From Deltaproteobacteria bacterium (GTDB taxonomy: Bacteria; Desulfobacterota; Syntrophobacteria; Syntrophobacterales; Syntrophobacteraceae): a stretch of DNA of 32,444 nucleotides. A model generated the notes under the pieces. It was not told the origin of the DNA. It did not search any database and worked only from the letters and a program-made list of their open reading frames with translations. The position numbers and the translations under genes are program-made. Each line of letters begins with the position of its first letter. The first letter of the stretch is position 1. Shown piece by piece: positions 21,246-29,227 of the stretch. The stretch spans positions 1 through 32,444 of the forward strand of contig JAJYTC010000034.1 in NCBI GenBank assembly GCA_021793275.1, given 5' to 3'.

Positions 21246-21322
21246 GCGCCTGTAGCTCAGTTGGATAGAGCAACGGACTTCTAATCCGTAGGTCGAGCGT
21301 TCGAATCGCCCCAGGCGCGCCA
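21246..21322 (+). tRNA. tRNA-Arg(TCT)
   Basis: Reads AGA codons. Acceptor stem GCGCCTG pairs with CAGGCGC, D arm GCTC/GAGC, anticodon arm ACGGA-CTTCTAA-TCCGT with anticodon TCT, five-base variable loop, T loop TTCGAAT, and encoded CCA at 21320-21322. One oddity: the T stem GAGCG/CGCCC has an A-C mismatch at positions 50-64. The 3' half from the anticodon stem on is the attachment site of the element that follows, so this half was probably delivered by the element. Confidence 0.95.
21272..21307. repeat. attL core, inside tRNA-Arg
   Basis: 36 bp identical to 29192-29227, from the anticodon stem through the T loop. Looser similarity continues about 55 bp beyond in both copies. Confidence 0.9.
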
Positions 21323-21367
21323 GCAAAATCAAGGACTTAGCGGCATGGCTCTTGAGTCTTTTCTTTT

Positions 21368-21394
21368 TGGTGTCCACATAGTGTCCACGGATGC
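21368..21394. repeat. left copy of 27-bp subterminal direct repeat
   Basis: Identical to 29057-29083. It holds two GTGTCCAC octamers 11 bp apart (21370-21377 and 21381-21388), one helical turn, as expected of paired integrase arm-type or excisionase sites. Confidence 0.85.
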
Positions 21395-21424
21395 AATTTG
21401 AAGCCCCTCGGCGTGCATGATTCA

Positions 21425-21763
21425 TCATTCACCTTCTGAGAATAATTCCCCGCCGCCAAGATCTCGATAATAAGACTCAAGGTCCGCCCGTGAAATCCGG
21501 TAATCCTTCCCTATCTTCGCCGCCTTGAGAGCTTGCTTCTTAATAGCTCTTCTGATCGTTTGTTCATTCAGGTTGAGCATTTCCGCCGCTTCTCTCACGG
21601 AAAACACCTGCTTGCCCACAATCACCCCCCTTACGATTTCACGCCATTCGGCCTCTGTCTTTTCACTTAATGCGTCCAATGCATCCGGGTGTTCGGCCAG
21701 GTACGCGTCAAGCCGGGCATTTGCCCGTCTGATTCCTTCCAGGTTAATAGTCTTCTTGGTCAT
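21425..21763 (-). CDS. excisionase-like HTH DNA-binding protein
   Basis: A 112-aa protein. Its C-terminal half has the HTH_17 / excisionase pattern (QVFSVREAAEMLNLNEQTIRRAI, then the wing KAAKIGKDYRISRADLESYY). The N-terminal half (ARLDAYLAEHPDALDALSEKTEAEW) is helical and charged and unknown. Such proteins bend DNA at att sites and steer the integrase towards excision, or regulate the element. A GAGGAAAG ribosome site precedes the ATG. It is the gene nearest attL, ending about 30 bp from the 27-bp repeat, which in the circular form would put it beside the integrase promoter. It could instead be a transcriptional regulator. Confidence 0.8.
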   Translation of the reverse strand: MTKKTINLEGIRRANARLDAYLAEHPDALDALSEKTEAEWREIVRGVIVGKQVFSVREAAEMLNLNEQTIRRAIKKQALKAAKIGKDYRISRADLESYYRDLGGGELFSEGE

Positions 21764-21820
21764 GGTCTTTCCTCTTTCAATTCCCCCTGGGGGAAAATCC
21801 CCCAGGTCGCCAGTAAACTC

Positions 21821-22486
21821 CTATGCCGCCAGTATGCGCATAACCTGTGTGGCCTGAAAGTCTTTGCCTGTCCGCGTCTTCTTGCCCTTCTCGGTAAGCG
21901 CTCTGGCAATGGCGTTATATCCCATGCCGGATTTGTCGCATTCCCGGATGTAGCTGATTACCGCTTGTTCATCGGGATTCGGAATAAGGCCCTTGCCATC
22001 GTCGGCCAGGTAGTAGCCGTAAGGAATTGAGCCAACACGCTCACCCTTTGCTTTCTTATGCGCCATTGCCGTTTTGGTCCGTTCGGCTATCTGGTCCCGC
22101 TCAAACTCGTTCAGTACGGCCAGCATCCGGAAAACCATCTTCCCCGCTGCGGTGGTGGTGTCGATCTTCTCCGACAGGCTCACAAGGTCTGCGTTCCGCT
22201 CCATGAGCATATCGGCAATTTCGAGAGTGTCTTTTGTGGAGCGGGCAAGACGTGAAAGGCTGTAGACCACAAGAGCGTCATCCTTACCGACTCCCTTCAA
22301 TGCCGCCTGAAGGCCCTCGCGTTTATCCATCGAGGAACCGCTAATCCCGGCATCGGTGAATATCTCAAGGTCCGTGTATCCGTTCAGGTCAGCCCATGCC
22401 CGGATTTTCGCTTCCTGTGCTTCGAGGCTCACGCCTTCCCGCGCCTGGTCCTCTGTGCTCACTCTGATGTAGCCGGTTGCTTTCAT
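21821..22486 (-). CDS. serine recombinase, resolvase/invertase family
   Basis: A 221-aa site-specific recombinase. The N-terminal catalytic domain runs ATGYIRVSTEDQAREGVSLE (nucleophile serine in RVST), then VVYSLSRLARSTKDTLEIAD and MVFRMLAVLNEFERDQIAERT, holding the conserved arginines. The rest (RVGSIPYGYYLADDGKGLIP and onwards) is a short Recombinase-type domain with a terminal helix. The length is nearer small resolvases than large phage integrases. The start at 22486 follows GGGAG; the longer frame to 22570 has no family match. The element already has a tyrosine integrase at the att sites, so this enzyme more likely resolves dimers of the replicated form or inverts a segment. No inverted target repeats were recognised nearby. 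Confidence 0.9.
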   Translation of the reverse strand: MKATGYIRVSTEDQAREGVSLEAQEAKIRAWADLNGYTDLEIFTDAGISGSSMDKREGLQAALKGVGKDDALVVYSLSRLARSTKDTLEIADMLMERNADLVSLSEKIDTTTAAGKMVFRMLAVLNEFERDQIAERTKTAMAHKKAKGERVGSIPYGYYLADDGKGLIPNPDEQAVISYIRECDKSGMGYNAIARALTEKGKKTRTGKDFQATQVMRILAA

Positions 22487-27786: not shown

Positions 27787-27898
27787 TTTATTGCGCCTCC
27801 TGTGCGCAGCTCCTGAAGTGGTCCAGGGAAGGCCGGTCAGGAGTCCCAGCTTTTCGAGCAGGTTCATGACGCCCACCCTATCCCTGGAAGTTGGATTA

Positions 27899-29038
27899 TC
27901 ATTTCACAATCTTCAATACCTGCGCCTGCTTCGGTGTGAGCAGCTCGCCGGACTTTAAAGCGGCTTCCCTTACCGCATCCGGCCTTAAATGCGCGTAACG
28001 CTGCGTGGTGCTCATGTCTTTGTGTGTGAGCAGTTCCCGGACCACGGTTAAGTCAATACCACTGGAAACTAGCATCGAGGCGAAATGATGTCGCAGACCA
28101 TGAAGCCGGAAGTCCGCTGGCAGGTCCGCCGCCTTCCTGATTCTTTCCCACGGTCCCTTGAAGTCTGTCCGCTGCTTGTCTTTCCTGCCCGGAAAAACCA
28201 AGTCACATGTGACGGAGAGATCCCGGATCGTATCAAGGGCTTGAGCACTTACGCTGATCGTGGTCGTTTTGCCGCCCTTCGGATTCCTTAGAGTCACAGA
28301 GCCGCGCTCAAAATCAACATCATTCCAGGCAAGCCGGAAGAGTTCGCCGCGCCTCATACCTGTGAACATGGCGAACTTGACGAAAGCCGCCGATTCCCGG
28401 CAGGGCCAGTTCTCCAGGGTATCGAGCAGCCGCCGCGCCTCATCATCGGAAAGCATCTCTGTTTTCTGGTTATCGACTTTCGGCATGGAAACAGAATCAA
28501 CCGGGTTCTTGCCGTCATAGAGGTTCCACTTCCGGGCGAGGTTGAATACCCGCCGCATAATGACAATCTGGTGCTTTATCGTCTGCGCCGCAAAAGGTGT
28601 CCCGCGAACGCTCTTGCCCTTCTTAAGCTCTGTTTTCATCTTCTCGATGTCGAATGCGGTAATATCTGCAAGCGCTCTGGAGCCAAAGCGCGGTTCAATA
28701 TGCGCCCGGTAATAATATTCGTCGTCGCGCCATGACTTCTTATGCTCTTTGGCCCAAGGAAGATATTTCCCCCATACGTCGCCCAGGGTAATCGGCCTAT
28801 CCTGTGCCCGGTGGTCGGCAATGTCAAATTCGTCCCGGACCAAATCACCCTTGAGCGCCGCTTCGACTTCGCGGGCTATGGTGAGATTATCGACCACGCG
28901 GCTTATCCTCTTGCCTTTCACCTGGACACGGACACGATATTTCCTAACCCGTGTGAAGGTCGTCCCGCACTTCGAGCATTTCTTAGAGTTCAGCCCGTTT
29001 GACGTTTTGCACTCGGTGCAGAAAATCTCGATTGCCAT
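27899..29038 (-). CDS. tyrosine integrase with N-terminal zinc ribbon
   Basis: A 379-aa phage-type integrase that joins attP on the circular element to attB in tRNA-Arg. Residues about 1-35 hold a zinc ribbon (CTECKTSNGLNSKKCSKCG), which some integrase groups carry ahead of the arm- or core-binding region. The core-binding SAM-like domain spans about 70-180 and the catalytic domain about 190-375. The catalytic set is visible: TGMRRGELFRLAW, HGLRHHFAS, LLTHKD and TTQRYAHLRPD with the nucleophile tyrosine. The start at 29038 follows AAGAGG; the longer frame to 29098 crosses the subterminal repeat. It lies next to attR and reads away from it, normal for such elements, so the repeat at 29057-29083 sits over its promoter. 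Confidence 0.94.
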   Translation of the reverse strand: MAIEIFCTECKTSNGLNSKKCSKCGTTFTRVRKYRVRVQVKGKRISRVVDNLTIAREVEAALKGDLVRDEFDIADHRAQDRPITLGDVWGKYLPWAKEHKKSWRDDEYYYRAHIEPRFGSRALADITAFDIEKMKTELKKGKSVRGTPFAAQTIKHQIVIMRRVFNLARKWNLYDGKNPVDSVSMPKVDNQKTEMLSDDEARRLLDTLENWPCRESAAFVKFAMFTGMRRGELFRLAWNDVDFERGSVTLRNPKGGKTTTISVSAQALDTIRDLSVTCDLVFPGRKDKQRTDFKGPWERIRKAADLPADFRLHGLRHHFASMLVSSGIDLTVVRELLTHKDMSTTQRYAHLRPDAVREAALKSGELLTPKQAQVLKIVK

Positions 29039-29056
29039 AGCTAACCTCTTGATTCC

Positions 29057-29083
29057 TGGTGTCCACATAGTGTCCACGGATGC
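29057..29083. repeat. right copy of 27-bp subterminal direct repeat
   Basis: Identical to 21368-21394 and in the same orientation. It lies 19 bp upstream of the integrase start, so protein bound here could also repress the integrase gene. Confidence 0.85.
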
Positions 29084-29191
29084 GGAAAAAGGCGTCAAAA
29101 ACCGTCTTCCAACGTAACGACATAAATACCCTACAACCCTTATTCTGTAAAGGTTTATCTTAAGAACTGAAAAATTGTAAAAAGGCTTTTA

Positions 29192-29227
29192 AACGGACTT
29201 CTAATCCGTAGGTCGAGCGTTCGAATC
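29192..29227. repeat. attR core, displaced tRNA-Arg 3' half
   Basis: Repeats 21272-21307 exactly. After it the sequence no longer gives an acceptor stem or CCA (CCAGGCGTACTAAC), so this copy is not functional. Confidence 0.9.

Follow-up and report, generated by a model that had tools for sequence, protein, structure and literature searches.

Beside a tRNA-Arg gene near lysS, this uncultured, Syntrophobacteraceae-like bacterium carries a compact element that encodes recombinases and a replication module, and it raises the question of what kind of element this is and how it would travel between cells. Here, the window is the whole stretch of DNA that was analysed, 32,444 nt on contig C64 of a host genome of 4.65 Mb in 278 contigs; all genomes analysed are drafts. 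Within the window, the island lies 3′ of the tRNA-Arg gene, and its features are as follows (window coordinates):

21246-21322, plus strand: tRNA-Arg (TCT), the target gene, intact at the left end (ARAGORN; Rfam tRNA 68.5 bits)
21272-21307: left copy of the att core, 36 nt, within the tRNA
21368-21394: 27-bp repeat with two GTGTCCAC boxes, a probable integrase arm site (exact copy at 29057-29083)
21425-21763, minus strand: HTH_17/excisionase-type protein, paired with the serine recombinase (HTH_17 1.3e-13; phrog_66 1.1e-8)
21821-22492, minus strand: serine recombinase, 223 aa, possible multimer resolvase (Resolvase E 5.9e-43)
23063-23794, minus strand: zinc-ribbon protein with a probable membrane segment, cargo (weak zinc-ribbon matches)
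24041-24406, minus strand: Cys-rich protein, 121 aa (relative in sister island L039b, 46.7%)
24535-24695: iterons, 10 × TGTAAAC in both orientations, candidate origin (word count versus shuffles)
24697-26154, minus strand: primase helix bundle, RecA-like helicase and winged helix (NrS-1 HBD and AAA_25)
26138-26623, minus strand: primase catalytic subunit of NrS-1 PrimPol type, 161 aa (PDB phmmer 7e-32 to 6k9a/6a9w; phrog_13901 2.9e-52)
About 26620-26802, minus strand: small winged-helix protein, about 60 aa, AlpA/excisionase-like, family core marker gene
26892-26924: 33-nt repeat, candidate operator, upstream of the small AlpA/Xis-like gene
26962-26994: second copy of the 33-nt candidate operator, 94% identical to the first
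26983-27786, minus strand: gene X, about 267 aa, between the int-alpA RNA and the small winged-helix gene
27809-27888, minus strand: int-alpA structured RNA (RF02996), leader of gene X (cmscan 39.0 bits, gathering cut-off 35.8)
27899-29035, minus strand: tyrosine integrase, 378 aa, with N-terminal zinc ribbon (Phage_integrase E 3.5e-34; phrog_1; family alignment)
29057-29083: 27-bp repeat with two GTGTCCAC boxes, a probable arm site across the core in the circle (exact copy at 21368-21394)
29192-29227: right copy of the att core, 36/36 identical to the left

The ends at 21272 and 29227 that the initial annotation had proposed are indeed marked by exact 36-bp repeats that bound a 7.92-kb element in tRNA-Arg(TCT), with the left copy inside the intact tRNA gene. 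Direct repeats, one of which restores the tRNA 3′ end, and an integrase gene beside one end are the layout of a tRNA-targeted tyrosine-integrase element, and the likely genes all lie on the minus strand, from the integrase down to the HTH_17 protein. The similarity of the two ends runs beyond the tRNA, at 82% over 96 nt, through its apparent terminator. In a genus-mate (G004, locus L089), lysS and this tRNA-Arg gene are present, and the 1.5 kb examined there holds no island. The 61 nt past its core match the right flank of the window (29228-29288) at 55 of 61 positions versus 46 of 61 for the left flank, which fits a right flank that would be the original chromosomal one, displaced by the insertion. 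This empty-site argument rests on 61 nt because, in relatives, the genes that lie beyond the right end in the window did not turn up beside the tRNA. Elsewhere in the window, an ordinary class A RNase P RNA lies at 6261-6639 on the minus strand.

Several other claims of the initial annotation are corroborated by the matches listed above: two kinds of recombinase (tyrosine and serine), an AlpA-like regulator (the protein at 21425-21763), a primase-helicase and a candidate origin. Beyond these, we found the int-alpA RNA, the small excisionase-fold protein, and the paired 27-bp arm-like repeats. When the ends are joined into a circle, the 27-bp copies stand on either side of the core with the same orientation, as expected for the arm sites of a tyrosine integrase, and two sister islands have arm-like repeats of their own at matching places, as CGTGCACAGG doublets in L038 and GGTGGTACAC doublets in L148. 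The serine recombinase is uncommon among the related islands; L056 has the same serine recombinase and HTH_17 pair as the window. In L056 (G002:C334), this pair lies at 3692-5118, immediately ahead of the int-alpA RNA, which is the usual place of int. PADLOC returned only generic HTH matches on the element.

The replication module combines the AEP catalytic and helix-bundle domains of an NrS-1-type PrimPol, split over two ORFs, where the helicase-part ORF begins 17 nt inside the primase gene. We considered a recent frameshift in the primase and rejected it: L056, 61% identical in the domain, has the same overlap with its start at the same place, preceded there by a Shine-Dalgarno-like stretch. 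Both primase domains form one joined protein in L055 and L039a. Just downstream of the primase-helicase gene, TGTAAAC/GTTTACA occurs 10 times in 190 nt, as against at most 2 in 5000 shuffles, and inverted repeats lie at 24526-24704. Iterons directly follow the replication gene in L038 (6 × CTGCTAA), L039a (7 × ACCAGAA), and L148 (6 × AATAGCA), and they cluster within the replication region in L055 (14 × GGTTGCA) and L062 (8 × AGTTTCA); the same word-cluster analysis found no strong cluster in L009, L039b, L056, L078, or L150. The iteron word varies from island to island, and its location is constant.

Upstream of this module, gene X more likely starts at the ATG at 27786, behind AGGAGG, than at the GTG at 27876, and its product has no family match in Pfam or PHROGs. 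The pair of 33-nt repeats is placed between gene X and the small winged-helix gene, which in turn overlaps the primase gene by ATGA. Of the 25 loci long enough to judge, 19 carry this small gene at a distance of 1.9-3.1 kb from the start of int; two of these 19 appear to be a single island recovered in two MAGs. The predicted structure of its product (pLDDT 84) aligned, near the top of the PDB matches, with Tn916 Xis, BldC, RdfS, a P2 DNA-binding protein, the GIsul2 excisionase, and lambda Xis; these matches are weak (Z 3.1-4.8, i.e., below 5, for a tiny domain) and mostly to excisionases. Foldseek alone gave nothing below E 0.5, and relatives of the protein show weak HTH_17 matches. Its conserved position and predicted excisionase-like fold suggest a protein of about the AlpA/excisionase type.

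The int-alpA RNA was reportedly discovered by Weinberg et al. in 2017. Like other members of RF02996, the window copy exceeds the curated score cut-off and sits between int and an alpA-type gene; in these islands, the RNA is seen in addition to keep to gene X when genes intervene between it and int, and to travel with an island family. The window copy scores 54.8 bits with our own covariance model, which was built including it, and 22 nt separate its end from the probable ATG of gene X. A 7-bp pseudoknot, CTCCTGA/TCAGGAG, can be read by eye. Among 19 copies, the loop-to-tail pseudoknot covaries, with a mean of 5.0 bp for each copy's own pair versus 3.89 ± 0.19 for shuffled pairs (0/2000), in a test that ignores kinship among the copies and that leaves out the window copy, which has a G-U pair in the stem. 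The support for the RNA rests on the Rfam model and on this pairing test, since the thermodynamic fold of the window copy was no better than that of shuffles (z −0.08) and the RNAalifold structure was poor. RF02996 matches at E ≤ 0.001 occurred in 11 of the 39 genomes of the order, host included (5 above the cut-off), and our 21-copy model also found the RNA in L009, L037, L038, L045, and L053. Many family islands have it ahead of gene X. In L038 and L148, toxin-antitoxin-like genes stand between int and the RNA, and the RNA is still ahead of X, which points to a control of X and the genes downstream.

A separate copy of the RNA (L149, G009:C96:47550-47614, minus strand, 44.2 bits) lies beside a GemA gene (PF06252) and a gene for a tail-like protein, probably in a Mu-like prophage of a genus-mate and outside any int-alpA gene pair. 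P4 carries a C4-type RNA that also occurs in phages; by analogy, one RNA control may be common to satellite and phage here. We regard as tentative and rather doubtful the idea that the RNA would act as the control switch throughout a widespread family of satellites, as a pseudoknotted leader before X that would respond to a helper phage, either by sensing it or by obeying it.

The element does not stand by itself. A search for the same integrase in related genomes, a check that the initial annotation had put forward, yielded relatives 42-82% identical, in similar islands across Thermodesulfobacteriota. In named genomes, these relatives come mostly from MAGs labelled Syntrophobacteraceae, Syntrophobacterales, or Deltaproteobacteria; the only named isolate among the matches is Desulfothermus okinawensis, on a contig (L071) where the integrase is spread over several frames. 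Both ends could be placed for seven islands of 3.9-9.9 kb in six genomes, at tRNA-Arg, -Trp, -Thr, and -Leu genes, namely that of the window and the following:

L038: at tRNA-Trp, 6.66 kb
L039a: at tRNA-Thr, in tandem with L039b, 8.96 kb
L039b: at tRNA-Thr, in tandem with L039a, 8.75 kb
L078: at tRNA-Arg(ACG), 9.86 kb
L148: at tRNA-Leu, 7.31 kb
L150: at tRNA-Leu, 3.93 kb

The tandem pair (G002:C158:29001-49000) consists of two different family islands at one tRNA-Thr gene, and the integrases of L148 and L150 belong to another branch of the tree. A further island, L046, has a decayed integrase. The typical order is int, int-alpA RNA, gene X, the ~60-aa excisionase-fold protein, a replication gene, and iterons, and the proteins of the sister islands include primases, DUF3987 helicases, a toxin, type I restriction-modification, NYN, and DnaJ-like proteins (PHROGs, Pfam). 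The element is a member of this lean island family rather than a one-off remnant. As cargo, L078 carries type I restriction-modification genes at 14098-19289. The host genome holds a second family island (L009, G000:C42) with an integrase at 82% and a DUF3987 module; its att fragment has an altered anticodon loop (CTTATAA), and its other end is off the contig. In G009, a further copy of the island at tRNA-Arg(TCT) appears to span two contigs (L050, L055).

How would such islands move? Among the element ORFs tested, none matched a capsid, terminase, portal, relaxase, or coupling protein, which agrees with the initial annotation that genes for capsids, packaging, and conjugation are absent. Nor did PHROGs and Pfam searches with most of the larger proteins of the seven both-ended islands (a few ORFs were judged by eye only) reveal a head, tail, terminase, or relaxase; a relative in which the same ends enclose structural or transfer genes, which the initial annotation had named as evidence against it, did not appear among these seven. 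Because no transfer gene is encoded, we propose carriage by a helper. The host genome has phage terminase matches on three contigs (two of the three being best matches with or without stops), which means that prophages or their remains are present, and searches for Relaxase PF03432 and coupling protein PF02534 gave no match in it; in this host, these sequence matches tilt toward a phage helper. The sister genomes G002, G004, and G009 do carry relaxases, such that a conjugative helper is possible there.

Those relaxases are one reason to consider an integrative mobilisable element, in which a relaxase would act in trans on an oriT at or near the iteron and inverted-repeat stretch. Some known islands are mobilised in trans, and the inverted repeats would suit an oriT, but in several islands the repeats adjoin the gene for the primase-helicase, as would be expected of an origin, and the two families searched genome-wide are without a match in the host; we hold this explanation to be unlikely. 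An integrative plasmid-like element, which would be maintained vertically and, lacking a dedicated helper, would move only rarely, by transformation or generalised transduction, would account for a replication module of its own with iterons and a resolvase. It would also agree with the shared-word comparison for packaging-like DNA, which found no helper link: the longest word shared with the prophage-bearing contigs of the host was 15 nt versus 16 for the control. However, phage-induced islands have this type of regulator (AlpA) and this layout (PMC6092414, PMC10803314), which makes a helper-free life improbable.

A link to phages is seen in the integrase itself. Searches of IMG/VR with the single integrase and with the primase gave no relative, and no island of this kind was found on IMG/VR contigs, but an integrase-profile search returned four phage contigs (L157, L158, L159, and L160). 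These share the integrase core at 42-60% but not the zinc ribbon, and their N-terminus differs; L157 has a terminase and a major head protein, and L159 has a terminase. Their cores form two groups that nest at two places in the island tree, where several forks are weakly supported. Together with phage relatives of the primase domain at 43-48%, this nesting of two terminase-bearing groups speaks for the remnant of a prophage stripped of its structural genes. Yet the phage contigs have no zinc ribbon, small Xis-like gene, or int-alpA RNA, and nothing else shared was found, such that the nesting indicates that integrase cores moved between islands and phages and does not show the islands as broken phages. 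Seven bounded islands at different tRNAs, with the same kind of lean gene set, largely refute the remnant, and we give it very little credence.

We favor, with a probability of roughly 0.6, membership in a family of small islands that integrate at tRNA genes, excise and replicate by themselves, and travel with a helper, for which a tailed phage is the likeliest candidate. Against this reading stand the shared-word comparison, which yielded no packaging signal, the IMG/VR searches, which yielded no such island, the weak fold matches of the small protein, and the relaxases of the sister genomes. Of the initial reading as a replication-competent island of phage-satellite layout, the first part stands, since the element is integrated, apparently replication-competent, and free of virion and transfer genes, while satellite status itself is plausible, short of proven. 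Excision and replication of the island appear the surer part; mobilisation by a helper phage as the route of spread is somewhat favored. From the ends, gene set, RNA match, iterons, and family seen in the sequence, we infer the following course. The integrase would recombine the core in the tRNA-Arg gene via the GTGTCCAC arm sites, and the small AlpA/Xis-like winged-helix protein would direct excision and may activate the X-alpA-primase operon, which the int-alpA leader before gene X probably controls. The primase subunit and its helicase partner would copy the circle from the iterons adjoining the helicase gene, the serine recombinase would probably resolve multimers or tandem copies, and the circle or a concatemer would be carried by the helper.

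The initial view that content and order match no satellite family was only partly right, because the order int-X-AlpA-like-primase/DUF3987 is that of CP4-57 and PICMI, to whose int-X-alpA-replicase layout the RNA and the small excisionase/AlpA-like protein tie the island. In E. coli K-12, CP4-57 (intA-yfjH-alpA-yfjI) has the order int-X-alpA-DUF3987 of the sister islands L038, L009, and L076 and is likewise integrated beside an RNA gene (tmRNA), but its integrase is distant in the tree, and it has no int-alpA RNA, a length of 22 kb, and other cargo. PICMI consist of int, a gene that overlaps or adjoins it, alpA, in many cases an additional gene, and prim; their mean size is 6.7 kb, they always lie at fis, and they were found complete only in Vibrionaceae and once per genome (PMC10803314). 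In gene order and description, our islands resemble them: small, int-extra gene-alpA-primase, no capsid-remodelling gene, and predicted excision and replication of their own. Of the PICMI genes, int and primase are clear in the island, whereas alpA is recognised only by place, excisionase-like fold, and weak HTH_17 matches in relatives. Unlike PICMI, the window island lies at tRNA-Arg and its sisters at other tRNAs, some in tandem, many with the int-alpA RNA, and with PrimPol or DUF3987 modules.

With Gram-negative PICIs, which are defined by phage induction and specific packaging (PMC6092414), and with P4, the island shares int, an AlpA/Vis-type regulator, and a primase-replicase with an adjacent origin, here the candidate iterons after the helicase gene. 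It differs in that no family for terminase, capsid remodelling, or any other exploitation of a helper was matched (P4 sid, psu, and delta had no PHROGs or Pfam match in the element), and P4 carries the C4 RNA rather than int-alpA. We assign the island to none of the three kinds, PICMI, PICI, and P4, although its excision-replication half would, by analogy, work like theirs.

These findings carry the minimal int-X-AlpA-primase plan beyond CP4-57 and PICMI, to further hosts and tRNA targets and to replication modules that can be exchanged, and they show that it can bear defence cargo, as with the type I restriction-modification genes of one sister. The island follows that plan in a host group where it is new, with tRNA genes as targets, an int-alpA RNA as leader, and a PrimPol split in two. 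The curated and unexplained int-alpA RNA thereby gains a home, in what are probably hitch-hiking islands of syntrophic and sulfate-reducing Thermodesulfobacteriota, and its position ahead of the putative excision-replication operon is testable.
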